Shown piece after piece: positions 6,536 to 25,029 of a DNA stretch of 64,000 bases. Positions within the stretch are counted from its first letter, which is position 1. Each line of letters starts with the position of its first letter. Source of the DNA: an uncultured Eubacteriales bacterium (GTDB lineage: Bacteria > Bacillota > Clostridia > Christensenellales > Aristaeellaceae); NCBI GenBank assembly GCA_902764915.1, contig CACWXY010000006.1, positions 123,523 to 187,522 on the forward strand, written 5' to 3'. Below the pieces are notes generated by a model. That model made no database searches. It saw nothing but the letters and a program-made list of their open reading frames with translations, and was not told the origin of the DNA. Made by a program: the position numbers and the translations under genes.

Positions 6536-7536
6536 GCGCCCTCCTGCTGTCTGTGTGCCTCACAGAGTGCGTCCAGTGCCGCTTCCAGTGCCTCTCCGGC
6601 ACGGACACCGGGAATCGTGCAGCCCGCGGCCTGGGCATGCCCGCCGCCGCCGAACTGCTTGGCAACTTCATCAATCCGCCACGGTGCAATCGAGCGGAAG
6701 CTCATCTTTACGCCTTCCTCTGTTTCTCTGGCAAGCACTGTCATATGCACCCCTCGGATATCACGTCCGAAATTGACCACCGTATCCGCATCCTCTGCCA
6801 TTGCGCCATGCTTTGCCATGTCATCTTCTGTCAGCATCATGCCCGTTACCGTATCGTGCTCCCGATAACACAGAGTCTGCAGCGCACTGGTGATCAGGCC
6901 GACCTGCGCATGCGAGCGCTGCGCAAACAGAATCCGGCACAGCCGGGACAGCTGCACCGGTGTGCGCGCAATCTCGCTCATCATGTCAAAGCACTCAGGA
7001 CGTACATTGTCCTGGGAAAAGTTACCCGTATCGGTCGCCACTGCCGTATACAGGCACTCCGCGATTTCCCGGTCCATAGGCACACCCAGGATCTTCATCA
7101 GCCGCCAGATCAGCAGTCCCGCCGCACTGGCGTCCTCGTCCACAGCATTGACTTCCAGCCCCCGCGGATTCGTCCCATGATGATCAATCTGTACAATATG
7201 TCCACACCGGGCCAGCAGTGCATCCAGCGCCGCTTTCTGTGCTTCGTCCCGGAAGTTTACAATCCGGTCCAGTCCGGAACAGTCCACGGCAATAAACAGG
7301 TCATACTTTTCCGCACCTTCGCTCACACGCCGGATCGCATAGAATCCATCCATATAGTCCATATAGCTCGGTGCCGGATCCCGGTCATAGACATGCACGT
7401 TCTTTCCCATCAGCCGGAGAATCCGGGAAAGTGCCAGGGATGAACCGATGCAGTCTCCGTCCGGGTTCAGGTGCGCAGCAATGCATATCCTCTCAGAAGA
7501 CCGGATCAGTTCCGCAATCCGTTCCAGTTCACGCAT
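6532..7536 (-). CDS. DHH/DHHA1 phosphoesterase (NrnA-like oligoribonuclease / pAp phosphatase)
   Basis: A 334-residue cytoplasmic enzyme of the DHH superfamily, expected to degrade nano-RNA and/or 3'-phosphoadenosine 5'-phosphate using Mn2+. Metal-binding motifs are AHLNPDGDCIGSSLAL, FIAVDCSG, and the DHH signature QIDHHGTNP. The DHHA1 domain ends in FGGGGHAQAAGC. I place the start at the ATG at 7536, which has AAGGGAAGAAG upstream and overlaps the rbfA stop by 8 bases; upstream in-frame codons lie inside rbfA and lack protein-like sequence. The rbfA-nrnA-truB order is conserved in Firmicutes. Confidence 0.9.
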   Translation of the reverse strand: MRELERIAELIRSSERICIAAHLNPDGDCIGSSLALSRILRLMGKNVHVYDRDPAPSYMDYMDGFYAIRRVSEGAEKYDLFIAVDCSGLDRIVNFRDEAQKAALDALLARCGHIVQIDHHGTNPRGLEVNAVDEDASAAGLLIWRLMKILGVPMDREIAECLYTAVATDTGNFSQDNVRPECFDMMSEIARTPVQLSRLCRILFAQRSHAQVGLITSALQTLCYREHDTVTGMMLTEDDMAKHGAMAEDADTVVNFGRDIRGVHMTVLARETEEGVKMSFRSIAPWRIDEVAKQFGGGGHAQAAGCTIPGVRAGEALEAALDALCEAHRQQEGA

Positions 7537-7900
7537 GCTCTTCTTCCCTTTCCTCGTCCTTGATAACCTCTTTGAGCACGGCAGCAATGTGCACGCCGTA
7601 GGCGATGTTCTCATCACTGATAAAGAGCAGTTCCGGAATATACCGTATCTTCATTCGTCTGCCCAGTTCCCTGCGGATCATACCGGCGGCATGCTTGAGT
7701 GCGGCCAGCAGTTCCGTTCTTTTCTCATCTTCCAGACAGCTGACGTAGATCTTGGCATAACGCAAATCGCCCGTCACTTCTGCCCTGGTAATCGACCACA
7801 TGCCATCAATCCTCGGGTCCCGAAGATCATGACGTATAATTTCATCGACTTCTCTCTGGATCTCTTCACTCAGCCGATCCACACGCTTATATCCTGCCAT
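7529..7900 (-). CDS. rbfA: 30S ribosome-binding factor A
   Basis: A 123-residue KH-fold protein required for late 30S subunit maturation and 16S rRNA 5'-end processing. It begins MAGYKRVDRLSEEIQREVDE and has the family segment DPRIDGMWSITRAEVTGDLRYAKIYVS (split here as DPRIDGMWSITR and GDLRYAKIYVS). The ATG at 7900 has an excellent GGAGGAATAGAA SD; an upstream in-frame start lies within infB and is rejected. A terminator-like hairpin separates it from infB, with its T-tract touching the SD. Confidence 0.93.
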   Translation of the reverse strand: MAGYKRVDRLSEEIQREVDEIIRHDLRDPRIDGMWSITRAEVTGDLRYAKIYVSCLEDEKRTELLAALKHAAGMIRRELGRRMKIRYIPELLFISDENIAYGVHIAAVLKEVIKDEEREEEHA

Positions 7901-7907
7901 TTCTATT

Positions 7908-7950
7908 CCTCCAAAAAGCGGGAGGCAGAGGCGCCTGCCCCTGCCTCCCG
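7908..7950 (-). promoter_or_regulatory. Terminator-like hairpin fused to the rbfA Shine-Dalgarno
   Basis: On the minus strand a perfect 10-bp stem CGGGAGGCAG / CTGCCTCCCG (7919-7928 with 7941-7950, 12-base loop) is followed by C and TTTTT, which runs directly into GGAGGA, the rbfA ribosome-binding site. It should act as a partial terminator or processing site lowering rbfA and distal expression relative to infB. Confidence 0.7.
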
Positions 7951-7956
7951 GAAATG

Positions 7957-10900
7957 TTAACGCGGAATTTCTTCCATAATGAAGCACTCGACGATATCGC
8001 CTTCCTTGATATCGTTGTGTCCTTCCAGACTCATGCCGCACTCATAACCCGCCGCCATTTCCTTGACGTCGTCCTTGAGGTGGCGAAGGCTGGACAGCTT
8101 TCCTTCAAACACAACCACATTGTCACGCAGAAGACGGACACTGGCGTTGCGCTGCATCTTGCCATCCTGTACATAGCAGCCGGCAATGATGCCGGCACCG
8201 GTGATCTTAAAGACATTGCGGACCTCGGCATGGCCCAGCAGCACCTCACGGTACTCAGGTGCAAGCATGCCCTTCATGGCCAGCTCCATGTCCTCAATCG
8301 CCTTATAGATGACGGTGTAAAGACGGATATCCACCTTCTCCTTCTCCGCCTGTTCACGGGCAGAAGCATCCGGACGGATGTTAAAGCCAATGATAATGGC
8401 ATTAAAGGCAGAAGCCAGATTCACGTCGTCCTTGGTAATAGCGCCGGCACCGGAATGCAGAACGCGTACACGGACTTCGTCGTTGGAAAGCTTTTCCATA
8501 GCCTGCTTGACAGCTTCCACGGAGCCCTGCACGTCCGCCTTGATAATCAGATTCAGTGTGGTAATCTTGCCTTCCTCGATAGAGGAGAACAGGTTCTCCA
8601 TGGTCATCTTGGCAGCGGTTGCCTCGCGGGATGCACGCAGCTTTTCGCGGCGTTCCTCCGCAACCTGGCGGCTCAGATGATCGTCGCCTACCGCGATCAT
8701 CTCGTCACCGGCGCTGGGGACTTCATCAAAGCCCATGATTTCCACAGGCATGGAAGGACCGGCTTCCTTGACCTTTTCACCGCGGTCATTAATGAGCGCA
8801 CGCACACGGCCAGCTGCCATGCCTGCAATAATGTTGTCGCCCACATGCAGCGTACCGTTCTGCAGAAGTACGGTAGCCAGCGGTCCGCGTGCCTTGTCCA
8901 GTTTGGCCTCAATAATGACGCCGCGGCCCAGACGATTCGGGTTGGCACGCAGCTGCAGCATGTCTGCCTGCAGAAGAATCATCTCCAGCAGTTCATCCAC
9001 GCCTTCACCGGTCACCGCGGACACGGGCACGCAGATGGTCTCGCCGCCCCACTCTTCGCATACCACATCGTACTTGGTCAGATCCTGCTTTACGCGTTCC
9101 GGATCTGCCGCAGGCTTGTCCATTTTATTGATCGCAACGATCATCGGCACGCCAGCCGCCTTGGCATGGTTGATTGCCTCAACCGTCTGCGGCATGACAG
9201 AGTCATCTGCAGCCACAACCAGAACGGCTATATCCGTTGCCTGGGCACCGCGGGCACGCATGGCGGTAAACGCCTCGTGACCGGGGGTATCCAGGAATGT
9301 GATCTGCCTTCCGTCCACACTCACTGTATAGGCGCCAATGTGCTGGGTAATGCCGCCTGCCTCTGAGGCCGTGACACGGCTCTTGCGGATATAGTCCAGA
9401 AGACTGGTCTTGCCATGGTCGACGTGACCCATGATCGTGACAACCGGCGGACGGAACTCGAGGTTTTCTTCCCCGTCTTCGAAATCCTCTTCCACCAGCT
9501 GATCTTCGGCAGTCTTTTCCGCTTTCTTTTCCAGCGTAATCCCAAACTCGGAGCAGACCAGGGAGGCCGTATCGAAATCAATCTCCGAGTTAATGGTGGC
9601 CATATTGCCCAGGATCAGCAGCTGCTTGATGATCTCACCGGCGGTCTTGCCAATACGCTCTGTCAGATCACGCACAGTAATGGTATCGCCGGACATATAG
9701 GCCGTCTCAATCTTAATGGGCGCCATGCTCTGCTGCACAGACGGCTTCTTGCGGGCCTTGCGTCCGCCGCGGATCACTTCATCGTCATACCCGTTGCTGT
9801 AGTTATTGTTGCGCGCCTCCTGCTTGCGATTGCGGGAGACATGCTCCGGGTCATGCTGACGCACATAATTCTTTTTGTTGGGATCATAATTGGACACGCG
9901 CTCTTTTTCGATCGTCGGCACCATTTCCGGGACCACACGGCGCGCTGCGCTGCGGTTGCTGCTGCCGCTGCGCTGGCCGAATCCACCGCTCGGCTGTGCC
10001 GAACGTCCAAAACTGCCGGCACCCTGGCGCTGTCCACCCTGCGGCTGTGCCGGACGTCCAAAGCTGCCCTGGCCCTGCGGTGCGCCCTGCGGTGCGCCCT
10101 GCGGTGCGCCCTGCGGACGCCCGCCCTGCGGACTGCGGCCGAAAGGCTGACCCTGCGGCCGGCCCTGGCCCTGCGGCGCCGGACGCCCAAAGCTGCCCTG
10201 GCCCTGTGCCGGACGTCCATACGGACCCTGCGGCCGGTTCTGCCCCTGCGGAGCACGCGGCTGCGGCTTTTCTGTCGGCTTGGCAATACGGATGACATTG
10301 GGTGCCACGCCGACTGGCTTGGGCTGCGGCACAGGATCGCCCGGGCGCGAAATAATCTGCCCGATTGCCGGACGCTTCGGCTTTTCCGGCTTCGGCGCCT
10401 CCTGCTTGGCAGGCTCTGCCGGTCTGCTCTCTGCTTTGGGTTCCATTTTGGTTTCCACCTTAGTTTCCGCCTTTGCCGTCGGCTTGGCTTCCGTCCTGGA
10501 CTTTTCCGCCTTCGGCGCATCCGTCTTGGCAGGCGCAGGCTTGGCTGCTTCCTGCTTTGGCTCGGCCTCGGCTTCGGCCTTGGGCTGTTCTGCCTTCGGC
10601 GGTTCGGTCTTCGGCGGTTCGGTCTTCGGCGCTTCCTGCTTGACAGGCTTTTCCTCTGCGGCCTTCTGCGGTTCTTCTGCGGTCTCCGGCTGGGCGGCCT
10701 TGGCAGGCTTTGCCTCGCTTATTTCTGCCTTCGGCTCTTTTTCCTCCACCGGCTGCGGCACTGCTTCCACGTTTTCCGTCGTCTTGGGCTTTTCGGTCTT
10801 TTCCGCTGCCCTCACGACGGTTTCCGTCTTCACAGGCAGTTCTTCCGTCACAAACCCGCTCTCGGAGGTGTAGGCTCTGGAATGGGAAGAGAATGCGCGC

Positions 10901-11085
10901 TGGTCTTCCTCGCGCTTCTGCGCGGCTGCGGCCTCTTCCCGCTGACGCAGCAGACGCTTCTCCATATCCCTGAGCTGTGACATGAGACCGTCTGCCGATT
11001 TGTGCAACTGGATGGCTTCATTCAGTGCTTCGCCAGCCTCTGTTGCCAGTTCCCGTGTTGCATCCTTAAGATTCAGTTTCGTCAT
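7957..11085 (-). CDS. infB: Translation initiation factor IF-2
   Basis: A 1042-residue GTPase that delivers initiator fMet-tRNA to the 30S subunit and promotes subunit joining. The GTPase core shows G1 GHVDHGKT (about 553), G3 DTPGHE (about 599) and G4 NKMD (about 653), followed by beta-barrel domains and the C-terminal fMet-tRNA-binding domain. An IF2-N domain ([21 protein letters not shown]) precedes the core. The first 420 residues are an extended Pro/Ala/Lys/Glu tract followed by a Gly/Gln/Pro/Arg-rich segment with PQG repeats, making the protein longer than typical Firmicute IF-2 (about 700-900). The ATG overlaps the ylxQ stop as ATGA. Confidence 0.97.
10081..10116 (-). repeat. 12-bp tandem repeat in the IF-2 linker
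   Basis: Three exact copies of TGCGCCCTGCGG (plus strand) with a partial fourth encode the GAPQ repeats in the disordered N-terminal extension of IF-2. Part of a wider Gly/Gln/Pro/Arg-rich low-complexity tract spanning about 9960-10270. Confidence 0.85.
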
Positions 11086-11453
11086 TCGACGCTTGCACCC
11101 CCGACATTCCTGTCTTTATGATTCGTGTCCGCCGGCTGCGGCGGCACGTTCCATGCATCCTCAAGCAGGCCTTTGACCTTCTCGCAAAGCCCGCCCTGTA
11201 ACATCCCAACGGCCATACAGCTGCGTCCCATAGCCTTTGAGAGCATTCCCTCCGGTACCAAAGCCATCGGTATCTGCCGGAAACGGCATGCCGACTCGTA
11301 CCGGTCCTTCGTATTCTCCGATGCCCCGCTGTCCACAAGAAGCAGCGCGCACTGTCCGCTTCGAATCTGGGACAGGCACGGGCCTTCCCCGGTGACAGCT
11401 TGTCTGGCCCGCAGGCTCAGACCGAGTGTTCCCGAAAGACGTTTTTCATCCAT
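11082..11453 (-). CDS. Ribosomal L7Ae-like RNA-binding protein YlxQ
   Basis: A 123-residue protein of the L7Ae/L30e/S12e/Gadd45 family, predicted to bind kink-turn RNA. It starts [18 protein letters not shown], with [22 protein letters not shown] and [23 protein letters not shown] matching the family fold. The position between ylxR and infB, with an 8-base overlap upstream (ATGGATGA) and an ATGA overlap downstream, is diagnostic for ylxQ. The C-terminal 20 residues are polar and variable. The ATG at 11453 is chosen because the upstream frame lies inside ylxR. Confidence 0.88.
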
Positions 11454-11739
11454 CGTTCCCGGTTTCCTCCAGCCGCACCTGTTCCAATGTCTGCTGCAGC
11501 TGAGCCGCTGTTTCCTCGCCAAGACTGGTTTCCAGCTGACGCTCCAGCTGCTTCTGCCGGATAGCGCGCTGCAGACAGTCGCCCTGGCGGCAGACATAGG
11601 CGCCGCGCCCGGACTTTTTCCCGGTGGGATCAATGGACACGGAGCCCTCCGGCGAGCGTACCACACGGATCAGTTCTTTTTTGGGCTTCATTTCCCGGCA
11701 GCCCACGCACATGCGCATCGGGATCTTCTTCGTTTTCAC
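11446..11739 (-). CDS. YlxR / RnpM RNA-binding protein (DUF448)
   Basis: A 97-residue protein of the YlxR family (named RnpM in Bacillus, reported to modulate RNase P). Signature segments are MRMCVGCREMKPKKELIRVVR and GRGAYVCRQGDCL, with paired cysteines. I prefer the GTG at 11739 (VKTKKIPMRMCVGC) because GGGAG lies five bases upstream and family members begin at this position. A TTG four codons earlier at 11751 is an alternative. Lies between nusA (29 bases away) and ylxQ (overlapping). Confidence 0.9.
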   Translation of the reverse strand: MKTKKIPMRMCVGCREMKPKKELIRVVRSPEGSVSIDPTGKKSGRGAYVCRQGDCLQRAIRQKQLERQLETSLGEETAAQLQQTLEQVRLEETGNDG

Positions 11740-11768
11740 GTTCTCTCCCAAAGTCTCCCCGTCATCCT

Positions 11769-12947
11769 TTACAGGGTATCATCCTCGTCTTCGTCCGGAT
11801 AACCGTCAAACGGTTCATAGCTCAGCGGCTGATAACTGATATCCGACTCACCGAAGTTCATGCCCGCCTCGTCAACCATGTCCGTCATCTGGGACGCCTG
11901 GCTCTGGGACTTGATGTCGATCTTCCATCCCGTAAGCTTAGCTGCAAGCCGCGCATTCTGGCCTTCCTTGCCGATAGCCAGGCTCAGCTGATTATCCGGC
12001 ACGACCACGCGACAGACCTTTCCGGTCTCAGCGATATATACACTCAGTACATGTGCCGGGTTCAGCGCATTGGCGATAAACTCGGCAGGATCCTCGCTCC
12101 ACTTGATGATATCGATCTTTTCACCGCGCAGTTCGTTCACTACCCGGTCTACGCGCCCGCCGCGCTGACCGACACAGGCGCCGACCGGATCGATCATGGG
12201 ATCCATGGAATGCACAGCCATCTTGGTACGGCTCCCCGCCTCACGGCTCAGAGACTTGATGGTCACCACGCCGCCTGCGATCTCCGGCACTTCCATTTCA
12301 AACAGACGCTTGACAAGACTGGGATGAATCCGGGATACGCGCACCTGCGGGCCGTGCTGTGCCGCATTGCTGGCACGCTGCACTTCCAGCACATATACCT
12401 TCAGATGATCACCCTCATGAATTTCCTCGCCCGGAATCATCTGCTCATTTTCCAGAATTCCCACCGTATGCCCCAGTTCCACCACAGCACCACGGTCCGT
12501 GATGCGCTGTACAACGGCCGTGAGAATCTCATCGGTTTTCTCCGCGTACTCCTCATAGATCTTGCCGCGTTCTGCCTCACGGATGCGCTGCATGATAACC
12601 TGTTTGGCTGTCAAGGCTGCCACGCGAAGGAATCCGCGGGGCGTGACATCCACCTCCACGATATCATCCAGCTGGGTGCTGGGACGGATGCGCTTGGCAG
12701 CGTCGATCTGGATCTGGCTGGCCTCGTTCTCGACATTTTCCACGGCCAGCATACGCGCAAACACGGAGATCGCTCCGGTGTTGCGGTCCATGCGCACAAC
12801 CACATTGGCAGGTTCCACTACGCCCCGCGGCAGGTTCTTCCGGTAAGCAGCCTTGACCGCTTCCTCAATGGTGGAAAACAGCATGTCTTCACTGATTTCC
12901 TTTTCTCTGGCAAGGGCCTGCAGAGCCTCGATAACTTCCGATTTCAC
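11769..12947 (-). CDS. nusA: Transcription termination/antitermination factor NusA
   Basis: A 392-residue RNA polymerase-associated factor controlling pausing, termination and antitermination. The N-terminal domain starts KSEVIEALQALAREKEIS; S1 sequence (HTVGILENEQMIPGEEIHEGDHLKVYV) lies near 150-190; two KH domains follow, with GACVGQRGGRVDRVVNELRGEKIDII and NQLSLAIGKEGQNARLAAKL. An acidic tail (PDEDEDDTL) ends it. The GTG at 12947 overlaps the rimP stop as GTGA and has GGAGGGAGAAG at good spacing. An ATG eight codons upstream at 12971 lacks an SD. Confidence 0.95.
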   Translation of the reverse strand: MKSEVIEALQALAREKEISEDMLFSTIEEAVKAAYRKNLPRGVVEPANVVVRMDRNTGAISVFARMLAVENVENEASQIQIDAAKRIRPSTQLDDIVEVDVTPRGFLRVAALTAKQVIMQRIREAERGKIYEEYAEKTDEILTAVVQRITDRGAVVELGHTVGILENEQMIPGEEIHEGDHLKVYVLEVQRASNAAQHGPQVRVSRIHPSLVKRLFEMEVPEIAGGVVTIKSLSREAGSRTKMAVHSMDPMIDPVGACVGQRGGRVDRVVNELRGEKIDIIKWSEDPAEFIANALNPAHVLSVYIAETGKVCRVVVPDNQLSLAIGKEGQNARLAAKLTGWKIDIKSQSQASQMTDMVDEAGMNFGESDISYQPLSYEPFDGYPDEDEDDTL

Positions 12948-15944: not shown

Positions 15945-16790
15945 ATCTGCTTCCGGGGAAGTGGCCATTGCACACATCCTCCCTGGCGGATGGAATGCAG
16001 CGCTGAGCAACTGGCACTGCGGGCAAGAGTCCTGGCAAGAGAGACATACCATTGCAGACGGCCGCATCTGTCGCACACATGCCGGTATCGTGTCAGCCCC
16101 GCCGAATGCGTACACACAGTTTATTGTTTCCGTCTCTGCACACTGAAAGAAGCGGCACTTTCCGTGATGTCTGCCATCATTTTCGGCTAATATTCTCGAA
16201 GGCCGGCCAGACGTATGCTATTTCAAGTATTGATTTTCATCAGGCAGATATCCCGTATATGGACAATCCAGCCATATGTTTTTTTTCAGCACGCAATGCA
16301 TATGCTGTGAAGCCTGTCGTCTGACGATCCACGCTTTATTCCATTCCCTTCCGCTTGTTCAGCGGCAGGAGCGACAAAGCACACACTCCGACTTTCCGCA
16401 CCATTCTGCTGGCAAAGGTATATGCATGCCGGTGCAGTCCTGCCCGGCAGAAAGCGGCAGTGCCATAAAAGGCATGCACGATCGCCTTATACTGCTGTTC
16501 TCAGACAGACGCCACACGCAGTACAGCCGGAAACAGGGATCGAGCCGAAGGAGACAGAACAAGGCTTTGGAAGCCGGATTGCCTGCCATATATGCGCATT
16601 ATTCTCCATATGGCAGCACAGGCATTCCTTCTTTATTGAAAACCATATTGTTTTATCACTTTTTCTTTCCATTTTCAATATTAGCACATGGATTCCTTCA
16701 TGTATCTTCGGTTTACGCCGCCATACAGTCTTCCTTCCATCATCACTCTTCATAATCCACGGCAGTGTCATGCGGGTATCCATGGCTTTG
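15945..16790. other. Large intergenic region without a recognisable gene
   Basis: About 850 bases between convergent transcription units. Open frames of 60-200 codons occur on both strands but lack ribosome-binding sites and protein-like composition. The central part (about 16190-16330 and 16610-16690) is AT-rich. I found no tRNA, riboswitch core, transposase fragment or terminal inverted repeat. It could be a decayed gene, but I cannot name one. Confidence 0.5.
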
Positions 16791-16852
16791 AAAAAGGGTA
16801 CCGCATTCCCGGGCAGCACGCAGTCCGTGCTGCCCGGGGAATGCGGTACCCT
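16791..16852 (-). terminator. Rho-independent terminator of the ecf-ior-paaK operon
   Basis: Stem of about 25 bp (AGGGTACCGCATTCC... with its complement at 16826-16851, one-base bulge, loop of about 5 bases) followed on the minus strand by CTTTTTC. It lies 30 bases after the paaK stop. Confidence 0.93.
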
Positions 16853-16882
16853 TCTGTGTATGGAATGTCTGTGCGTTTATCG

Positions 16883-18118
16883 TTATTCGAATCTCTCGTC
16901 AATCACGCGCTTGCTCTTTTTCTCACTGCGCGGAAGCACGCCCAGTTCCACCACTTTCACCAGCGGTGAGAACCCGATGCGTGACTTCACGCGTTCCGTG
17001 ACCCTGCGCGCCATATCCGCAAAGTCCACCGTTCCGTTGGTTTCCACATAAATGCGCATGGTGTCCCTCCCATCCAGATGCGAAATACGGATCTGGTACT
17101 CACTGGAGAGCTCGGGGAAGGAAGCCAGCACTTCTTCAATCTGCTTGGGGAAGACATTCACACCCTTGATCTTCATCATGTCATCACTGCGCCCGGCGAT
17201 GACATCAATCCGCGGGTGATGACTGCCGCAGGGGCACTCCCCGGGGATGATCCGGCTGATATCATGCGTGCGGTAGCGGATCAGCGGCGCACCTTCCTTG
17301 ACAAGCGTGGTAAGAACAATCTCGCCCCACTCGCCGTCCGGAACATTCTTTCCGGTCTGCGGATCAATGATTTCGACATACAGATAGTCTTCCCAGATAT
17401 GCATGCCTGTATTGTACTTGCAGTTGATGCCGATGCCCGGGCCATAGATCTCAGTCAGTCCATAGATGTCATACAGTTCAATGCCCAGTTCTTTCCGGAT
17501 GCGCGCGCGCATTTTATCGCCCCAGCGTTCTGAGCCGATCACGCCTTTCTTCAGGTGAATCCGATCCCCGATCCCACGCTTGGCGATCTCCTCCGCCAGA
17601 AGCAGGGCATAGGAGGATGTGGCGCACAGTACCGTAGTCTTCAGGTCCATCATCATCTGCAGCTGCTTATCCGTGTTTCCGGGACCCAGCGGCACGGCCA
17701 TGGCGCCCAGGCGCTCACAGCCCGCCTGGAAGCCGATGCCGGCTGTCCACAGGCCATAGCCGGGGGTAATCTGGATACGGTCATGGGGCGTAATCCCTGC
17801 ATATTCATAGCACCGGGCAAACATAATTGCCCAGTCCTCCACATCCTTTTTGGTATAGGGAATAATCACGGGAACGCCGGTAGTGCCGGATGAGGAGTGA
17901 ATGCGGACAATCTCCTCCTCAGGCACTGCCATCAATCCCAGCGGATACGCATCCCGAAGGTCCTGTTTCTGGGAAAAGGGCAGTTTTTCAAACTCTTCCT
18001 CCGTGGCAACGCCGGTAATGCCGGCCTCCCGCAGTTTCCTGCCGTAGAAGTTATCCGAGGCAACCAGGCGTTCAATCTGACGGTTCACAAGGCGCAGCTG
18101 TTCATTCGAAATTGTCAT
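16883..18118 (-). CDS. paaK: Arylacetate-CoA ligase (phenylacetate-CoA ligase family)
   Basis: A 411-residue adenylate-forming enzyme that joins an arylacetate (phenylacetate, indole-3-acetate or similar) to CoA with ATP to AMP plus PPi. The ATP-binding loop HSSSGTTGVP is at about 74-83, YGLTEIYGPG at about 215-224, and the C-terminal hinge and lysine region GRSDDMMKIKGVNVFP at about 308-323. The length matches the short archaeal/clostridial PaaK type. SD GAAGGAG. It lies 17 bases after iorAB, the recurrent IOR-ligase pairing of anaerobes. In the oxidative direction it would make ATP; under tryptophan control it more likely activates arylacetates for reductive carboxylation. Confidence 0.92.
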   Translation of the reverse strand: MTISNEQLRLVNRQIERLVASDNFYGRKLREAGITGVATEEEFEKLPFSQKQDLRDAYPLGLMAVPEEEIVRIHSSSGTTGVPVIIPYTKKDVEDWAIMFARCYEYAGITPHDRIQITPGYGLWTAGIGFQAGCERLGAMAVPLGPGNTDKQLQMMMDLKTTVLCATSSYALLLAEEIAKRGIGDRIHLKKGVIGSERWGDKMRARIRKELGIELYDIYGLTEIYGPGIGINCKYNTGMHIWEDYLYVEIIDPQTGKNVPDGEWGEIVLTTLVKEGAPLIRYRTHDISRIIPGECPCGSHHPRIDVIAGRSDDMMKIKGVNVFPKQIEEVLASFPELSSEYQIRISHLDGRDTMRIYVETNGTVDFADMARRVTERVKSRIGFSPLVKVVELGVLPRSEKKSKRVIDERFE

Positions 18119-18135
18119 ACGTATTCACTCCTTCT

Positions 18136-20631
18136 TCACTTCTCCGGGTTTTCATAGGTAAGGGCCTTCTGATTGATGGCCTGCACTTTTTCCGGGAGCA
18201 TACGCCGTATCGCCTCCGCGATTGCCTCCCTGGTCAGGCCGATGGCTCCGCTTTGCGCCGCAGCGCCAAGCATCACTACATTCGTAACCTTGTCATTGCC
18301 GAGCGCTTCCAGGGCTTTGCGGGTATCCACACAGATCACCCTGGCATCCGCACGCTGCAGTGCTTCCATGATTGCGTCCCTGTCATACGCAGGACCGCCC
18401 GTGAGACTGGAAACCGGGTATACCGGTTCCACAGCGGTGATCACGGTTCCGCCCCTGCGCAGATAGGGCAGCATCCGCACCGCCTCGGCAGGCTCGAAAC
18501 TGAGAATACAGTCCGCTTCTCCCGGCGCGATCATGGGCGAATGAACGTCCGGCCCCAGGCGCAGATGACTGAACACGCTTCCACCGCGCTGGGCCATGCC
18601 GATCGTTTCCGCCGTGCGGATCGGAATACCGGACACCATGGCCGCTCCCGCCATAAGCCGGGAAGCAAGAATGGTTCCCTGTCCACCCACGCCGCACAGC
18701 ACGATATTCTTCCGCAGCGAATGATTGGGCGCCGTCACGCCGTCAGAAGAAAGCGCACTCGCGCTGTGCCCGGACTTGGTTCCCGCTCCCGCAAAGGCAG
18801 CGGGATCACGGGCTTCCCCGCCCCCGATGGCTTTTACCGGGCATACCTGCTCGCACAGCGTACAGCCGGTACAGGTGTCTGTCTGGATCCTTGCCTTTCC
18901 GTTCTCCAGCGTAATGGCGGGGCAGCCGAGCTCGGTAATGCACCGGCGGCATCCCACACACCTGTCCGTGTCCACTTTCGCCCGGCTGCCGCGGGGCTTG
19001 CATTTCACAATACAGGGATAGCGGAAGATAATCGCCTTCAGCCCGGGAAGATCCGCCATGCGCCGTACGGTCTCCACAGCACTTTTCAGCTCCAGGGGAT
19101 TGACAATCTCTACATGCGCAATCCCGATTCCTTTCAGTACGTTCTCCATCCGCACAGCGTCCACGGCTTCGCCCATCATGGTGACGCCGGTGCCCGGATG
19201 CGGCTGATGCCCCGTCATGGCCGTGGTCGAGTTGTCCAGTATCACCAGCGTCATGTCCGCCTGATTGTAGAATCCGTTCACTGCCCCGGTAATCCCGGAA
19301 GCAAAGAAGGTGGAGTCACCCACAAAGGCAAATGCCTTGGTATCCGGCTCCATATGCGTCACGCCCTGGGCAATATTGACGCCTGCACCCATGCACAGGC
19401 ATGTATCGCACATGTCCAGGGGCTGCGCATTGCCCAGGGTATAGCACCCGATATCCCCGCAGAAGAGCGTCTTCTTGCCCTTCATGGCCTGTTTGACAGC
19501 ATAGAAGGAAGCGCGGTGCGGACATCCGGCACAGAGCACCGGCGGCCGGACAGGCAGCGGCGGCAGCGTATCCAGCGCGCACGCATGCTTCTCCATGCTT
19601 CGTCCGATGAGTCGTTCCACAGCCTCGCGTATTTCTTTGATCGTATTCTCGCCGCTGGGCTTGATCCATCCGTCACGCTTTCCGTGCACACACACACGGA
19701 TGCCTCTGCGTCCGCACAGGTCCTGCAGCGCACGCTCCAGCACCGGATCCAGTTCCTCCACGGCCAGTACCGTGTCCAGGCCTTCCAGGAAGGACGCAGC
19801 CAGCGCATCCGGGAACGGGAAGGGTGTACCCACCTTCATCAGCCGCGGACGATCCTCCTGCGGCAGCAGGTCCAGCAGATTCGACCAGTTCATTCCATGG
19901 GAAATGATGCCCATCCGTTTTCCCGCAAAGGAGCCTGTTTCCGGAAGCACGCAGTTGAAGGTGCTTTCAGAAAAGACGTCCGTCAGATGCTGGTTGCGCG
20001 CTTCCATTCTGGCATGATTGACCACAGACAGCCGGGGAAAAATCACCCAGCGGCTGCTGTCCTTGACAAAGCCCTCCGCAGCATGTGTCTCCCATTCTTC
20101 CTCGTCCCGGACATCAATGACTGCGTACCCGTGGTCAATCCGGGTCGTGGGCCGCAGCAGCACTGGCGTATGGTATTCTTCCGAAAGCCGGAATGCTTCC
20201 TGCACCATGGCATAGGCTTCCTCCACAGAGGAGGGATCCAGAACCGGCAGCTTACTGTACATGGCAAAGGTGCGGGTATCCTGCTCCGTCTGGGACGAGA
20301 TCGGGCCCGGATCATCCGCCACCAGCACGACCATGCCGCCCTTGACTCCGATATACGCCAGGCTCATCAGAGGGTCCGAGGCCACATTCAAACCTACCTG
20401 CTTCATGGTTACCAGCGCACGCGCGCCGGCATAGGCGGCCCCGGCCGCCACCTCCAGCCCCGCCTTCTCATTGACGGACCATTCCACATACGTTTTCTCG
20501 CGCTTCCGGCGGGCAATGGTTTCCAGTACCTCCGTTGACGGTGTGCCCGGATACCCGGATACCAGCTGTACTCCGGCTGCCAGCGCTCCCAGGGCAATCG
20601 CTTCATTGCCCATGACAAATTCCTGATGCAT
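18136..20631 (-). CDS. iorAB: Indolepyruvate:ferredoxin oxidoreductase, alpha and beta subunits fused
   Basis: An 831-residue TPP and iron-sulfur enzyme interconverting arylpyruvate + CoA + oxidised ferredoxin with arylacetyl-CoA + CO2 + reduced ferredoxin. IorA part (about 1-620): GNEAIALGALAAG and SGYPGTPSTEV near the start, TPP-binding GDIGCYTLG and FVGDSTFFASGITG, and two [4Fe-4S] clusters CVGCRRCITELGCP and CTGCTLCEQVCP at about 557-595. After a short Gly/Ala/Ser linker, the IorB part (about 635-831) begins with CGVGGQGTILASRLMAGAA and contains ETIGMAQRGGSVFSHLRLG. IorA and IorB are normally separate genes; here one frame encodes both. SD GAGAGGAAGG. Confidence 0.93.
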   Translation of the reverse strand: MHQEFVMGNEAIALGALAAGVQLVSGYPGTPSTEVLETIARRKREKTYVEWSVNEKAGLEVAAGAAYAGARALVTMKQVGLNVASDPLMSLAYIGVKGGMVVLVADDPGPISSQTEQDTRTFAMYSKLPVLDPSSVEEAYAMVQEAFRLSEEYHTPVLLRPTTRIDHGYAVIDVRDEEEWETHAAEGFVKDSSRWVIFPRLSVVNHARMEARNQHLTDVFSESTFNCVLPETGSFAGKRMGIISHGMNWSNLLDLLPQEDRPRLMKVGTPFPFPDALAASFLEGLDTVLAVEELDPVLERALQDLCGRRGIRVCVHGKRDGWIKPSGENTIKEIREAVERLIGRSMEKHACALDTLPPLPVRPPVLCAGCPHRASFYAVKQAMKGKKTLFCGDIGCYTLGNAQPLDMCDTCLCMGAGVNIAQGVTHMEPDTKAFAFVGDSTFFASGITGAVNGFYNQADMTLVILDNSTTAMTGHQPHPGTGVTMMGEAVDAVRMENVLKGIGIAHVEIVNPLELKSAVETVRRMADLPGLKAIIFRYPCIVKCKPRGSRAKVDTDRCVGCRRCITELGCPAITLENGKARIQTDTCTGCTLCEQVCPVKAIGGGEARDPAAFAGAGTKSGHSASALSSDGVTAPNHSLRKNIVLCGVGGQGTILASRLMAGAAMVSGIPIRTAETIGMAQRGGSVFSHLRLGPDVHSPMIAPGEADCILSFEPAEAVRMLPYLRRGGTVITAVEPVYPVSSLTGGPAYDRDAIMEALQRADARVICVDTRKALEALGNDKVTNVVMLGAAAQSGAIGLTREAIAEAIRRMLPEKVQAINQKALTYENPEK

Positions 20632-20661
20632 GGAACCTTCCTCTCTGTATATGATCTTGGT

Positions 20662-21423
20662 TCAGAATACGACTGACAGTGCGATCAGAACCAGTCCCGC
20701 AAGGATCGCAGTCAGATCCCTGCCGTCAAAACTGGTCCTGCGATAGGCGCTCCTGCGCGTGCGCAGGGAAAACCCACGCAGTTCCACGGCAATGGCCGCT
20801 GACTCGATTTTCTTGACTGAAGAGATCAGAAGCGGTACGCACAGTGGGATCATCAGCCGCAGTTTCTTCCAGAAGCTTTTGGTGTCAAACGCGACGCCGC
20901 GCGCGGTCTGTGCTTCCATGATCATCTGCATATCTCCCGTAAAGACAGGGATAAACCGGATCGCAGATGTAATGGCAAAGGCATACTTGTACGGCATATG
21001 CGCATGGTAGACCAGTGCATTGGCCAGGTCCGACATCTGTGTCACGGCAATCATCAGCGCCAGCGGCAGGGTAATGTCGATCAGCCGCAGAACGCCCATT
21101 ACCGCAACCTGGAGCCCGTGATCCGTAATCAGGATTCCCAGGGGAAGCGTAGCCAGCACGCGTCCGCTCTGAATAAACAGGACCTGCATGACCAGAAGGA
21201 ACAAAGCCAGCTTGCCCAGTCCCCGCAGCAGCTTCAGCGTATGTCCCGGAATGCCGGCGAGAAAGCCGATCCCGATATCCAGAACAAGAACGCCCAGCAG
21301 AAACCACCATGCGTCCGTGAGAAAGCAGGCGATGCACAGAAGAAGGGGGAGCAGAATCTTGGTACACGGGTTCAGCCGATGAATCACCGTATCCCCGGGA
21401 ATGTACACCAAAAGACTTTTCAT
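20662..21423 (-). CDS. ecfT: ECF transporter transmembrane component EcfT
   Basis: A 253-residue integral membrane protein that couples the ECF ATPases to an S component. It starts MKSLLVYIPGDTVIHRLNPCTKILL, typical of EcfT (P-G-x-S-x-x-H-x-L-x-P-x-x-K), has about five hydrophobic segments, and has coupling-helix motifs in the C-terminal cytoplasmic part (EAQTARG; VELRGF). Start ATG overlaps the upstream ATPase stop as ATGA. iorAB starts 30 bases downstream on the same message. Confidence 0.9.
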   Translation of the reverse strand: MKSLLVYIPGDTVIHRLNPCTKILLPLLLCIACFLTDAWWFLLGVLVLDIGIGFLAGIPGHTLKLLRGLGKLALFLLVMQVLFIQSGRVLATLPLGILITDHGLQVAVMGVLRLIDITLPLALMIAVTQMSDLANALVYHAHMPYKYAFAITSAIRFIPVFTGDMQMIMEAQTARGVAFDTKSFWKKLRLMIPLCVPLLISSVKKIESAAIAVELRGFSLRTRRSAYRRTSFDGRDLTAILAGLVLIALSVVF

Positions 21424-22220
21424 TGCACTCCCGCCTTTCTCTTCCCGATCGCTTCCGTCATTTCCTCCACGGTTCTGATCCCCGAAAGACCCAGGCGCGC
21501 CGCCAGACCAATCATCTGCGGCGGAAGCAGGGATGCCGCACGCAGCAAGGATGGATCCTGAAAGACTTCTTCCGTACTCCCCTGCCCCAGGAGATGCCCT
21601 CCCGAGAGAACCAGAATCTCGTCGGCATAGTCCAGCACGACCTCCATGTCATGACACACCATGACAACCCGCGTTCCCTGTTTTTCCAGCCGGGATACAT
21701 ACTCCATGATGCGGGTACACTCCCGATAGTCCAGCCCGGTCGTCGGCTCGTCCAGGATCAGAAGCTCCGGCTTATGCACCAGTGCCGTCGCCAGCGCAAC
21801 GCGCTGCCGCTCGCCGCGACTGAGCATCATGGGATCATCCTGCGCAGACAGGGACAGCGCGTCCATGACCTCCTGGCACGCTGCCTCATGCAGCGACGCA
21901 TCCGGAACCGTCCACTGCAGGGAAAAGAGAAGTTCATCCCTGACCGTGCTCCGGCAGATCTGCCGGTCCGGGTTCTGGAAGAGAAATCCCATGCGTGCGG
22001 CCAGGGTACTGGCCTGCAGTGTCGCCATATCCTGATCATGGAAATAAACGGTGCCGGAAGTGGGATGCAGAAGACCGCGCATAAGCTTGGATACCGTGGA
22101 TTTACCGGCGCCATTGGCTCCGATCAGTGCCGTAATCCCGCCCTTTTCCAGGGAAAAGCACAGATCATGCACCGTACTGCCCTCGCCGTAGCCAAAAGAG
22201 ACGTGATCAAACCGGATCAT
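21420..22220 (-). CDS. ecfA: ECF transporter ATP-binding subunit (second)
   Basis: A 266-residue ABC ATPase. Walker A GANGAGKST at about 33-41, Q-loop FQNPDRQI, signature LSRGERQR in place of the usual LSGGQ, Walker B LLILDEP, and an H-loop VCHD. The C-terminal extension PPQMIGLAARLGLSG is characteristic of EcfA proteins, which contact EcfT. ATGA overlaps join it to both neighbours. The degenerate signature suggests the two ATP sites of the heterodimer are not equivalent. Confidence 0.9.
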   Translation of the reverse strand: MIRFDHVSFGYGEGSTVHDLCFSLEKGGITALIGANGAGKSTVSKLMRGLLHPTSGTVYFHDQDMATLQASTLAARMGFLFQNPDRQICRSTVRDELLFSLQWTVPDASLHEAACQEVMDALSLSAQDDPMMLSRGERQRVALATALVHKPELLILDEPTTGLDYRECTRIMEYVSRLEKQGTRVVMVCHDMEVVLDYADEILVLSGGHLLGQGSTEEVFQDPSLLRAASLLPPQMIGLAARLGLSGIRTVEEMTEAIGKRKAGVQ

Positions 22221-23056
22221 TGCATCGCCTCCCTTGCCATGCGCTCCGCCTCATCCATGTTCACAGGCGCTGTTCCCTGATACCAGCCGCGCTCTGACAG
22301 AGCCTGGTGCAGGGATACAATGCGCGGCACATGAATGCCCAGGCTTTCCATGGCCCGGCCGTTGGCCAGCACTTCACGCACGGGACCGAAGAAAGCAAGA
22401 TGCCCGTGATCGAGCACCGCAAGCTTTCGCGCATAGGCGCACAGCAGTGCGATCTTCTGTTCCACAATCACTATGGTTGTCCCATAGACACGGTTGATAT
22501 CGGACAGCAGCGCAAAGATCTGTTCACTGCTCTGCGGGTCCAGTTCGCCTGTCGGCTCGTCCAGAACAATCATTCTCGGCCGCAGCGCCACAATGGAGGC
22601 AACCGCCACTTTCTGCCGTTGTCCGCCGCTGAGCGTATCAATATGCCGCATGCGCAGATCCTCGATCCCGCACGCCGCAAGCGCTTCCGTAACCCGGCCT
22701 TCGATTTCATCATGCGGTATGCCGAAGTTCTCCAGTCCGAACAGAATCTCATCCTCCACCACCGAGGCAACCATCTGCGCATCAATATCCTGGAAGACGC
22801 TGCCTACATGCGACGCAATAATCTCCGGCCGGGTCTCCACCGTATCCATGCCGTTCACTTCCACGGACCCGTAATAGTCGCCCCTGTAAAAGCCCGGAAT
22901 GACGCCGTTCATTGCATAGGTGAGCGTACTCTTGCCGGCACCGCTGTTGCCGATAATTCCGACAAAATCCCCGTCCGCAATCGTCATATTGATATTCTGA
23001 AGCGCCGGGGTTCTGCCGCTGTCATACTGAAATGTAAAATCCGAAATCCTGATCAT
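22217..23056 (-). CDS. ecfA: ECF transporter ATP-binding subunit (first)
   Basis: A 279-residue ABC ATPase that pairs with the next gene product. Walker A GNSGAGKST at about 35-43, FQDIDAQMVASVVEDEILFGLEN Q-loop region, canonical signature LSGGQRQK, Walker B MIVLDEPTGELDP, C-terminal LGIHVPRIVSLHQAL. The ATG at 23056 (MIRISDFTFQYDS) has AAGGGGC upstream; the longer frame to 23113 starts in the intergenic hairpin and is rejected. Stop overlaps the next start as ATGA. Confidence 0.9.
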   Translation of the reverse strand: MIRISDFTFQYDSGRTPALQNINMTIADGDFVGIIGNSGAGKSTLTYAMNGVIPGFYRGDYYGSVEVNGMDTVETRPEIIASHVGSVFQDIDAQMVASVVEDEILFGLENFGIPHDEIEGRVTEALAACGIEDLRMRHIDTLSGGQRQKVAVASIVALRPRMIVLDEPTGELDPQSSEQIFALLSDINRVYGTTIVIVEQKIALLCAYARKLAVLDHGHLAFFGPVREVLANGRAMESLGIHVPRIVSLHQALSERGWYQGTAPVNMDEAERMAREAMQ

Positions 23057-23074
23057 ATGCTGCCCCTTGTCCGC

Positions 23075-23102
23075 GGGAAAGATGCACCACGGCATCTTTC
23101 CC
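23075..23102 (-). promoter_or_regulatory. Intercistronic hairpin between ecfS and ecfA
   Basis: Perfect 11-bp stem GGGAAAGATGC / GCATCTTTCCC with loop ACCACG on the message, not followed by a T-tract. Probably an mRNA-stability or processing element that sets S-component levels apart from the energising module. Confidence 0.6.
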
Positions 23103-23122
23103 GGAGTACACAATGCGCTTAT

Positions 23123-23668
23123 TTATTTCTTCAGTACCTTCTTCATGGCTGGATACAGAGCCTGTACCAGAACGGCATTGATGGTGGCCGTACCCAGGAC
23201 AATCGGGACATACGCCGCCAGTGCACCGGACTCATAGTGCATGAACAGGAAAAGACATACCGTATAGGAGCCGCCGCTGATGACTGTGGAGAGAAAGGTA
23301 GCGACAATGGGATTGGCATCAAACCGGCTCACACGCATGGGTACCTTAATCAGAAGGCCCATGGCGAGTGCGCCGAGCAGTTCGCTGATCAGGTTCAGAT
23401 ATGGCGTACCGGGCAGCACCTGGCAGATCGCGCCGGCAAGAAGCCCTATGATGGCAGCCTCCACAAGCCGGGGACGGATCAGCAGAATGGCCAGACAGTA
23501 CATGGCAATAATGAAGTTCGGCTTCATGCCGAAGAAATTGATTACGGAACCGACGACGCCCTTGAGTACAGCGCCTGCGGCAAGAAGAACAGCTACGAGA
23601 ATCAGGTCCGCTACCTGCAGGCCTTTCTGGCTGGACATTTCTCTCAGTGTACGCTTTTCACCGGACAT
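23123..23668 (-). CDS. ECF transporter substrate-binding (S) component, probably for tryptophan or a related indole
   Basis: A 181-residue integral membrane protein with about six hydrophobic segments (LILVAVLLAAGAVLKG; FIIAMYCLAILLI; AAIIGLLAGAI; LLGALAMGLLI and others). Its size, the energising ECF genes that follow and the segment GMKPNFIIAMYCLAILLI fit S components of the TrpP-like kind. Specificity is inferred from the tRNA-Trp T-box upstream, not from binding residues. Start ATG at 23668 has AAAAGGAG nine bases upstream; an ATG at 23704 has no SD. Confidence 0.75.
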   Translation of the reverse strand: MSGEKRTLREMSSQKGLQVADLILVAVLLAAGAVLKGVVGSVINFFGMKPNFIIAMYCLAILLIRPRLVEAAIIGLLAGAICQVLPGTPYLNLISELLGALAMGLLIKVPMRVSRFDANPIVATFLSTVISGGSYTVCLFLFMHYESGALAAYVPIVLGTATINAVLVQALYPAMKKVLKK

Positions 23669-23795
23669 AATGACACGCTCCTTTTCATCACTTGTTCTTT
23701 TCATTTCTGTCTCAGACAGGAAACTGCGCTTCCGACGACTGCGCCGTCGCTCCTTTCTCTGCCTTCAAGGCCACTGTCCGGCAGATTCTGGGACA

Positions 23796-24060
23796 GAAAA
23801 ACCCCTGTCCCTGCAAACATTTTTGCTGGGACAGGGGAAACAAGCTTCTCCTGCGGTGCCACCCGGCTTGGCACGTGACCCGTGCCCTCTTTTACGCACT
23901 TTCATGCGCTGCCCTTGATCACGGAGCGCCCCTCCGTCTCGCCTACTCGGTCACCCTTTCGGTTTGCTCTCAGAAGTCCATTCTGTCTTACTTCCTCCAC
24001 TGCGCTTTCACCGTCCGCAGCTCGCTGGGGGGTTCCGTCAGACATACTCGTCTTCCTCAT
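23796..24060 (-). promoter_or_regulatory. T-box riboswitch specific for tRNA-Trp
   Basis: Minus-strand leader of the ecfS operon. Stem I: lower helix GAAG (24054-24051) with CTTC (23975-23972), upper helix TGTCT (24043-24039) with AGACA (23987-23983). They enclose a specifier loop with ACGAGTA on the 5' side and GAATGGA on the 3' side. UGG (23979-23977, Trp) follows GAA and precedes a purine, as in known T-boxes. An apical CAGCGAGC / GGTGAAAGC pair follows the Stem I consensus. The T-box core GGGTGGCACCGC is at 23863-23852; its UGGC would pair with an acceptor end GCCA, that is G73, the discriminator of bacterial tRNA-Trp. A terminator (CCCCTGTCCC / GGGACAGGGG, then TTTTT at 23800-23796) follows. 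Confidence 0.9.
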
Positions 24061-24071
24061 GGATGTAGCTG

Positions 24072-24101
24072 CATTCTACCGGATCATCCAGAGTGCTGTC
24101 A
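24072..24101 (-). promoter_or_regulatory. Promoter of the T-box operon
   Basis: Minus strand TTGACA (24101-24096, perfect -35) and TAGAAT (24077-24072) with an 18-base spacer, placing the transcript start just before T-box Stem I. Confidence 0.75.
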
Positions 24102-24159
24102 AGACAGGATTGTCGGAAATGGGTGAAAAAACATCAGGAAAACAATGTGCCGTCCTGTG

Positions 24160-25029
24160 TCAGCATTCCATTCGCTCCACGCGGTCGCCGGTTTCCCGCA
24201 TGGGATAGAATACCGGGCGCTCCCTGGGGCTCTGATTGGGGTTGTGCAGTGTCAGCATCAGCTGACCGTCCTCTGTCCGGAAAAGCATGCCATGTCCGCC
24301 ATCCCGGGAAAAGACCGGGGGCAGCTGCGTAAAGTGACTGCTCACACGCCCGGTATCCGACACGGCCAGGCCTTCGGTATACCCGCCCTCGGAAAAACTC
24401 GCCCACAGGCACAGAAGCCGGCCTTCTGCTGTCTTCCACAGAAACGGGCCGTCTGTCACATATCCGTCCACGCCGGAGGAATGATGCACGCTCTTCGCCC
24501 ATTCCGCCTCGGAAGCACGGAACAGGAGTACCGGTTCGCCAGCGCTCGCTTTCAGGTCCCGGCACAGCGGCATGGCCCAGACTTCTCCGTCCCCCGCCTG
24601 CACCCATTCATGGCAGAAAACCATATAGGGCGTTCCATCGCTTTCCACATAAAAGGTTCCGTCCAGGCACTCCCAGTCCCGGGGCGTGACAGGACCCGCG
24701 GACCATACGGCAAAGGGACCCATGGGCGATGCGGCGCGCAGGATCTGCGTGCCTCTGTGGACACCCTCGGCAGCAAAGCTCGCAAACATGTAATACGCGC
24801 CTTCATAGGCATGCACTTCCGGCGCCCAGTAATTGCGGTCCGCCCAGAAGCCCTCCGGCCGCGTAAAGCACGCATGCGGTCCATCCCATTCCTCCAGGTC
24901 CCGGCTTACATACACGTCAAACCCGTCGGCTTTTCCCCAGCAGGTCGCTCCCCGGGTGCCATAGAGATAGTATTGGCCGCCTTCCCGGAGCACAAAGGGA
25001 TCACGCACATGAATTTCATTCGTTTTCAT
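24160..25029 (-). CDS. Glycoside hydrolase family 43 protein
   Basis: An approximately 289-residue five-bladed beta-propeller glycosidase, probably acting on arabinose- or xylose-containing side chains or oligosaccharides. RDPFVLREGGQYYLYGT at the start carries the catalytic-base aspartate; NYWAPEVHAYEGAYYMFAS and DGTFYVESDGTPYMVFCHEW are further blade motifs. In the usual general-acid position I read VTDGPFLW, Asp instead of the common EGP. There is no signal peptide, so it acts in the cytoplasm on imported oligosaccharides. Start ATG 25029 has GGAAAGG nine bases upstream (an ATG at 25038 is too close to that SD). It overlaps the AraC-type regulator stop and ends the operon. Confidence 0.85.
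   Translation of the reverse strand: MKTNEIHVRDPFVLREGGQYYLYGTRGATCWGKADGFDVYVSRDLEEWDGPHACFTRPEGFWADRNYWAPEVHAYEGAYYMFASFAAEGVHRGTQILRAASPMGPFAVWSAGPVTPRDWECLDGTFYVESDGTPYMVFCHEWVQAGDGEVWAMPLCRDLKASAGEPVLLFRASEAEWAKSVHHSSGVDGYVTDGPFLWKTAEGRLLCLWASFSEGGYTEGLAVSDTGRVSSHFTQLPPVFSRDGGHGMLFRTEDGQLMLTLHNPNQSPRERPVFYPMRETGDRVERMEC

Follow-up and report, generated by a model that had tools for sequence, protein, structure and literature searches.

Operon layout and predicted gene products

The DNA analysed here, called the window, is a 64,000-nucleotide stretch of contig CACWXY010000006.1 (GCA_902764915.1) from an uncultured Eubacteriales bacterium. Its minus strand holds, at 16883..24101, an operon in which a promoter and a T-box leader RNA, predicted to sense tryptophan, precede the genes of an energy-coupling factor (ECF) importer (trpP-ecfA-ecfA-ecfT), a fused iorA-iorB gene for indolepyruvate:ferredoxin oxidoreductase (IOR), a paaK-like gene and a terminator. 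An earlier note on this DNA had described the gene order, the common strand, the short gaps or overlaps and the terminator at the end, all of which were found; its seven separate open reading frames (ORFs) turned out to be six, as iorA and iorB are fused. Below, G000 denotes the genome of the window, other G numbers the sampled genomes, L numbers the fetched loci and f numbers the families. The parts of the operon are as follows.

24073..24102, minus strand: promoter TTGACA-18-TAGAAT (consensus scan, 11 of 12 matches).
23824..24069, minus strand: T-box leader RNA (RF00230, 70 bits, E 4.5e-15, all model positions, 1-219).
23123..23668, minus strand: trpP, encoding the S component (the membrane subunit that binds the substrate) of an ECF importer with tryptophan as its predicted cargo (PF17099 TrpP, E 1.4e-10).
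22217..23056, minus strand: ecfA, first ECF ATPase (TIGR04520, 226.3 bits, curated cut-off 315; PF00005).
21420..22220, minus strand: ecfA', second ECF ATPase (TIGR04521, 195 bits, curated cut-off 330; PF00005).
20662..21423, minus strand: ecfT, CbiQ-type transmembrane coupling protein (PF02361 CbiQ, 89 bits, above cut-off).
18136..20631, minus strand: fused iorA-iorB, indolepyruvate:ferredoxin oxidoreductase (one ORF, 831 amino acids).
16883..18118, minus strand: paaK-like gene, predicted AMP-forming arylacetate-CoA ligase (TIGR02155, 392.7 bits, cut-off 646.3).
16796..16851, minus strand: terminator hairpin at the end of the operon, then TTTTT (-53.9 kcal/mol).

The promoter is the sole promoter-like match on the minus strand in a crude consensus scan of 16600-24300, which gave four matches on both strands where 3.4 are expected from shuffles. 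The same scan found no second minus-strand promoter, in agreement with the single promoter ahead of the leader proposed earlier. Translation of trpP more likely begins at 23668 than at the first ATG of the ORF (23704). TrpP resembles S components both in sequence family (PF17099) and in fold, and a sequence search found no solved structure matching its profile. With two ATPases (PF00005 twice) and an EcfT (PF02361) encoded in adjoining genes, the gene set of an ECF importer is complete, as the earlier note had it, and TrpP with EcfA-EcfA-EcfT is predicted to import tryptophan.

The alpha part of the fused IorAB spans residues 1-602 and scores 703 bits with TIGR03336 over residues 3-602, above the cut-off of 650.9. 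The beta part lies at about residues 640-825, where IOR beta models reach up to 171.6 bits (641-825). The domains found (PF01855, PF02775, Fer4 and PF01558) include the thiamine pyrophosphate, 4Fe-4S and beta domains of an IOR, and the earlier assignment is confirmed. The last gene encodes a protein with the AMP-binding domains PF00501 and PF14535, both above cut-off; its closest solved relative is the phenylacetate-CoA ligase 4r1l (374 bits). Called paaK before, it belongs to the PaaK-like AMP-forming family, but its TIGR02155 score falls short of the PaaK equivalog cut-off, and we class it as PaaK-like only.

The leader is a predicted tryptophan T-box

The leader matches RF00230 over the full model, in line with the earlier call of a T-box, but its 70 bits lie under the gathering score of 93, and a default Rfam scan of the window therefore gave no match. 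Ten of the 17 RF00230 matches in G000 also score below it, including the trpS and valS leaders. The folding z-score of the leader is -3.16 relative to 100 shuffles. Three features were located within or next to it.

23978..23980, minus strand: specifier codon UGG (Trp), in the covariance-model column that reads the cognate codon in synthetase-linked leaders.
23828..23864, minus strand: antiterminator with the T-box sequence GGGUGGCACCGCAGG and the bulge UGGC.
23796..23837, minus strand: competing intrinsic terminator CCCCTGTCCC...GGGACAGGGG-TTTTT, a hairpin of -26.4 kcal/mol that is present in the minimum-energy fold of the leader.

UGG sits in the loop ACGAGUA / GAAUGGA, between GGAAG/CUUCU and UGUCU/AGACA. 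As a control for the specifier, 10 of the 17 T-box leaders of G000 were aligned to the RF00230 model. The specifier column reads AUC (ileS), AUG (metG), GUC (valS), UGG (trpS) and UAC (aminotransferase-tyrS), the cognate codon in 5/5 synthetase-linked leaders, and UGG does not vary among 16 aligned leaders of the tryptophan type. The specifier UGG named in the earlier note therefore stands on a covariance-model alignment as well.

The tRNA-Trp of G000 (L286) has the anticodon CCA and the discriminator G, and this G together with the terminal CCA is complementary to the bulge UGGC. The sequence CCCCUGUCCC is common to both structures, being the 3' half of the antiterminator and the 5' half of the -26.4 kcal/mol terminator. 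The leader thus combines a specifier that fits the amino acid of the downstream genes, an antiterminator that excludes the terminator and a bulge that fits the 3' end of the tRNA. Judged by these features, it is a predicted tryptophan T-box with the specifier UGG.

Tryptophan T-boxes directly upstream of the enzyme genes

Leaders of the enzyme genes were sampled at the 22 closest iorA loci of the order (L117-L138). Here, iorB and paaK follow iorA in 22/22 loci, paaK often being cut by the locus end. In ten genomes (G049, G161, G023, G167, G086, G067, G149, G071, G185 and G090), a UGG T-box precedes the iorA match at a distance of 77 to 663 bases, and the interval holds no transporter genes; G049 has a small ORF there. 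All ten leaders have UGG in the specifier column. Together with G000 and G070, whose T-boxes stand before trpP, a tryptophan T-box was found over 12 of the 22 loci. None was found at eight (G179, G079, G017, G097, G152, G126, G054 and G063); for G075 and G117, the check was limited to a pattern search. In G023, G161, G067, G149 and G071, trpP and the ECF genes form a second operon with its own UGG T-box.

Because the T-box precedes iorA-iorB-paaK without transporter genes in ten genomes, the enzymes carry the predicted tryptophan switch in their own right. On the same grounds, we rejected the idea that the enzymes are mere passengers behind a transporter T-box.

TRAP-type leaders as a second predicted sensor

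T-boxes, all with UGG, were found in eight of 20 fetched trpP leaders, which together with those of G297 and G000 gives ten T-box leaders. The other 12 leaders (families f38, f53 and f57) had no T-box at E 0.05. These 12 carry TRAP-type GAG/UAG arrays, in which 65 bases hold 7 to 10 triplets. In a 65-base test, the array was reached by at most 5 of 1000 shuffles for ten of them, by 104 for G355 and by 95 for G322. In a chain test with 500 shuffles, G322 was reached by 0, G355 by 11, G579 by 6 and G639 by 19. The leader in the window has four triplets in 65 nucleotides, a density reached by 999 of 1000 shuffles.

The array finding made the presence of a TRAP gene a prediction, which was therefore tested. 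A match to PF02081 was present in 12/12 array-leader genomes versus 2/10 T-box genomes (G070 and G523; Fisher p 0.00014, a value that is overstated since the 12 array genomes come from four genera). Neither G000 nor G297 has a match.

Five of the 12 array leaders precede the full operon with iorA-iorB-paaK (G341, G418 and G368 of f38; G318 and G470 of f53). A hairpin with a T run lies between array and start codon in most f38 and f53 leaders, and some f57 leaders have a hairpin covering the ribosome-binding site. A tryptophan-rich leader peptide as the control of the T-box-less leaders was rejected, since the leaders gave a few W-containing frames but no convincing attenuator peptide.

T-boxes of this type read uncharged tRNA-Trp. 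TRAP, as described in the available text of PMC11255114, reads free tryptophan. For this reason, two unrelated tryptophan sensors predict the same output, namely an operon that is down when tryptophan is plentiful and on when it is short.

Both sensors seem to be combined in the leader L205 (G523:C72), where a UGG T-box is accompanied by a GAG/UAG array that covers the trpP start codon. None of 1000 shuffles reached this array, which has 9 triplets in 65 bases, and a TRAP gene is present in G523.

The operon in other genomes

Most of the closest named relatives at this locus are microbes of the rumen and gut. Seven further genomes (G297, G070, G341, G418, G368, G318 and G470) share the gene set with its order and direction. 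In a sample of 21 genomes with a TrpP match at E 1e-40 or better (8 from the order sample and a further 13 from the class sample), trpP-ecfA-ecfA-ecfT-iorA-iorB-paaK was found in seven (G000, G070, G341, G418, G368, G318 and G470); the contig stops within the ECF genes in G639 and G523. In all six sampled genomes of one genus (f57 g150), the TrpP-ECF genes have no adjoining ior or paaK. Of 80 named iorAB loci, 71 include paaK, 2 do not, and the remaining 7 are truncated at an edge.

G297 and the Treponema genome G298 were located through iorAB and not through TrpP. In the latter (L047, Treponema sp. RGIG8034), which belongs to another phylum, trpP-ecfAA-ecfT separates iorAB from paaK and is encoded on the opposite strand; the locus showed no T-box, and the TRAP gene search gave no match. 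At L196 (G318:C6), iorA of the full operon is split over two reading frames, either by a real break or by an assembly error.

A quick IorA tree (91 rows, long branches) was used only to show that the tryptophan-linked IorAs are not one group. The fused IorABs of G000 and G297 pair with a support of 99 and fall among fused IorABs from Lachnospiraceae and Oscillospiraceae metagenome-assembled genomes (MAGs) without ECF genes. G070, the f23 T-box group, G167, f38 and G470 are placed elsewhere, and the T-box-plus-ECF label requires at least two changes. Since the tryptophan-linked IorAs are scattered over the tree, importer, enzymes and tryptophan control were probably joined more than once; the long branches bar a firm count.

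Predicted tryptophan requirement of the host

The G000 genome (4.2 Mb, 94.7% complete) gave no match for trpA or trpC and only a 19-bit match for trpB, and the organism is therefore predicted to be a tryptophan auxotroph that is unable to use indole. It has chorismate synthase, aroA above cut-off and a prephenate dehydratase-like gene just below cut-off (215 of 219 bits). Chorismate synthase is likewise present in G297 (L034), a Clostridia MAG from sheep rumen that carries this operon too, and no match was found there for trpA, trpC or a trpB-like gene. In the order, trpA was matched at E 0.001 in only 44 of 297 genomes (42 above cut-off), and most of the order would be tryptophan auxotrophs.

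T-boxes were also located at other loci of G000. At L227 (G000:C13, about 9300-12350), a UGG T-box precedes genes for a substrate-binding protein, a permease and an ATPase, presumably a transporter of the TrpXYZ kind; another UGG T-box precedes trpS. G000 would thus have a second tryptophan-controlled importer. At L228 (G000:C18, 8750-11523), a UAC T-box is followed by a pyridoxal phosphate (PLP) aminotransferase related to MocR-type proteins and by tyrS; the aminotransferase is a candidate for the missing arylpyruvate transaminase. L226 (G000:C8:24000-42000, about 5900-11750) has a UAC (Tyr) T-box in front of genes for an acyl-CoA ligase, a second iorA-iorB and a sodium/solute symporter, its iorA being 43% identical to that of the window. 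By this arrangement, it is a predicted tyrosine-type parallel of the window operon. Its ligase-ior relatives in G179, G284, G254, G097 and G079 showed no T-box pattern upstream.

Proposed function and alternatives

We consider it probable that the operon behind the tryptophan T-box supplies tryptophan when it is short, by ECF import and by conversion of indole-3-acetate to indolepyruvate through the PaaK-like ligase and IorAB. By analogy with the T-box family, uncharged tRNA-Trp would stabilise the antiterminator, so that the six genes are transcribed, and charged tRNA-Trp would let the terminator form. TrpP with EcfA-EcfA-EcfT would bring in tryptophan. The PaaK-like ligase would turn indole-3-acetate into indoleacetyl-CoA, with ATP spent to AMP, and the fused IorAB, with reduced ferredoxin and CO2, would carboxylate indoleacetyl-CoA to indolepyruvate. 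An aminotransferase encoded elsewhere is predicted to convert indolepyruvate to tryptophan. Other arylacetates may be side substrates.

Reductive salvage of indole-3-acetate is favoured because two sensors predict an operon that is on when tryptophan is short and because the ligase is of the AMP-forming type. Ligases of this type are argued to favour acyl-CoA synthesis, and a Bacteroides IOR next to one may serve aromatic amino acid biosynthesis (available text of PMC13285125). The oxidative 2-oxoacid:ferredoxin oxidoreductase (OFOR) loci of gut acetogens adjoin phosphate butyryltransferase and butyrate kinase (available text of PMC13290082).

Several observations weigh against the proposed function. 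The IOR of Bacteroides thetaiotaomicron runs oxidatively (PMC13285125, in part), gut acetogens convert indolepyruvate to indoleacetyl-CoA, and no motif was found that predicts activity on indolepyruvate (both PMC13290082, in part). The T-box lies under the Rfam gathering score and the ligase under the PaaK equivalog cut-off. Among the TRAP-type leaders, the array of G355 is weak in both tests, and the array statistic as a whole is post hoc. The 80 named loci were searched for T-boxes ahead of iorA with a simple motif assessed by eye, in place of a covariance scan and with fewer than 600 bases upstream in 12/80; the only T-box found was that of L034, before trpP. As most named relatives have no such leader in this motif scan, the iorAB-paaK pair would seem to have other roles or other controls elsewhere.

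The loss of trp genes is not specific to carriers of the operon either. The earlier note had asked about this loss, and it applies to three of the eight co-directional carriers, which lack trpA (G000, G297 and G418); it fails for the five that have it (G070, G341, G368, G318 and G470), and loss is the rule of the order, with 253 of 297 genomes giving no trpA match. At the closest iorA loci, trpA is missing in 9/12 genomes with a tryptophan T-box versus 4/10 others (Fisher p 0.19). In view of the counts for order and carriers, missing trp genes were rejected as proof of salvage.

Among the alternatives, one concerns the importer, whose cargo could be indole-3-acetate or another arylacetate, making the operon one transport-plus-carboxylation line. 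The joining of ECF genes to iorAB-paaK in one operon in eight genomes, and their interleaving in Treponema L047, would fit such a line. We nevertheless regard it as doubtful, as TrpP-ECF occurs without adjoining ior or paaK in the six f57 g150 genomes and as a separate T-box operon in five others. Furthermore, the Pfam family takes its name from tryptophan transport, and the trpP of B. subtilis is called a tryptophan transport gene in work cited in the available text of PMC11255114.

The enzymes might also act in the formation of phenylalanine from phenylacetate or of tyrosine from 4-hydroxyphenylacetate and only share the tryptophan switch. IORs act on several arylpyruvates (PMC13285125, in part), and the closest solved ligase, 4r1l, is annotated for phenylacetate. 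Against this stand the UGG specifier in all ten aligned leaders directly upstream of iorA and the separate ligase-ior operon of G000 behind a tyrosine-type (UAC) T-box; in addition, chorismate synthase and the prephenate dehydratase-like gene suggest that the host probably makes phenylalanine de novo. A role in these two pathways is improbable.

Just as improbable is the oxidative direction, in which tryptophan would be transaminated to indolepyruvate, IorAB would form indoleacetyl-CoA, and the ligase would run in reverse to give indole-3-acetate and ATP, with a gain of reduced ferredoxin and energy. The B. thetaiotaomicron IOR is reported to take part in phenylacetate formation from phenylalanine (PMC13285125, in part), gut acetogens use OFORs in this direction (PMC13290082, in part), and many gut and rumen genomes have iorAB-paaK with no tryptophan leader, as judged from the motif scan. 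However, a tryptophan T-box would start breakdown exactly when tryptophan is missing, and it stands on the enzyme genes in ten genomes; the TRAP-type leaders of other families predict the same sign; and the ligase is AMP-forming, unlike the transferase-kinase pair at oxidative loci (PMC13290082, in part). The earlier argument that a tryptophan T-box speaks against breakdown has thus gained support from the comparison of UGG specifiers, the trp gaps of the host, the ten T-boxes on enzyme genes and the TRAP-type arrays. Tryptophan breakdown as the function of the operon was rejected, since it has the wrong regulatory sign under two predicted sensors.

Relation to known systems and significance

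Each element is already known by itself: reverse IOR, incorporation of arylacetates, transporter genes under tryptophan T-boxes and trpP under TRAP control. The tryptophan T-boxes of Firmicutes, found on transporters and trpS, share with the window the UGG specifier and the antiterminator/terminator pair. In C. difficile, for instance, a T-box is listed before the putative tryptophan transport protein CD1988 (available text of PMC11477304). The window leader differs in that it would also control a predicted arylacetate-CoA ligase and IOR, and in ten related genomes the leader is on these enzymes only. TRAP sites have been described in the B. subtilis trpP transcript (available text of PMC11255114), and the relatives in f38, f53 and f57 resemble this system in having GAG/UAG arrays and a TRAP gene. 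In contrast to it, G000 has neither a TRAP gene match nor an array, and the predicted TRAP target in f38 and f53 includes iorAB-paaK.

For a methanogen, a biosynthetic role of IOR in the reverse direction has been proposed (available text of PMC13285125). The same text describes a Bacteroides IOR beside an AMP-forming arylacetate-CoA ligase, a likeness to the window, but describes no tryptophan leader or ECF importer for it, and in the window IorA and IorB are fused. ECF importers with a dedicated EcfA-EcfA-EcfT and an S component share the gene set and the fold of the S component with the window, whose operon differs from them by running on into enzymes for the precursor of the predicted cargo. 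Rumen anaerobes form phenylalanine from phenylacetic acid (Allison 1965, cited in the available text of PMC7356843).

Arylacetate incorporation by rumen anaerobes has thus been known since the 1960s, and the literature consulted reports no regulated gene set for it there or in methanogens, whereas the genes described here sit behind predicted tryptophan sensors. A similar observation on indole-3-acetate and tryptophan was reportedly published in 1967. In the literature searched, which covered few subscription papers, neither ior nor paaK was reported behind a T-box or TRAP leader.

We think it rather likely, going by the leaders, that T-box and TRAP were separately placed over the same enzymes and that many gut and rumen anaerobes consume indole-3-acetate as a tryptophan precursor when tryptophan is short. 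If so, the leader would be a direct marker of genomes that make tryptophan from indole-3-acetate, and the direction of IorAB-PaaK would move from a guess to a regulatory prediction. It would also account for the ability of anaerobes that lack trp genes to live on a waste product of microbes, and gut and rumen would be predicted to harbour microbes whose uptake of indole-3-acetate is switched by the supply of tryptophan. Indole-3-acetate is the plant auxin and a ligand of a host receptor; such microbes would deplete this signal in times of tryptophan shortage.

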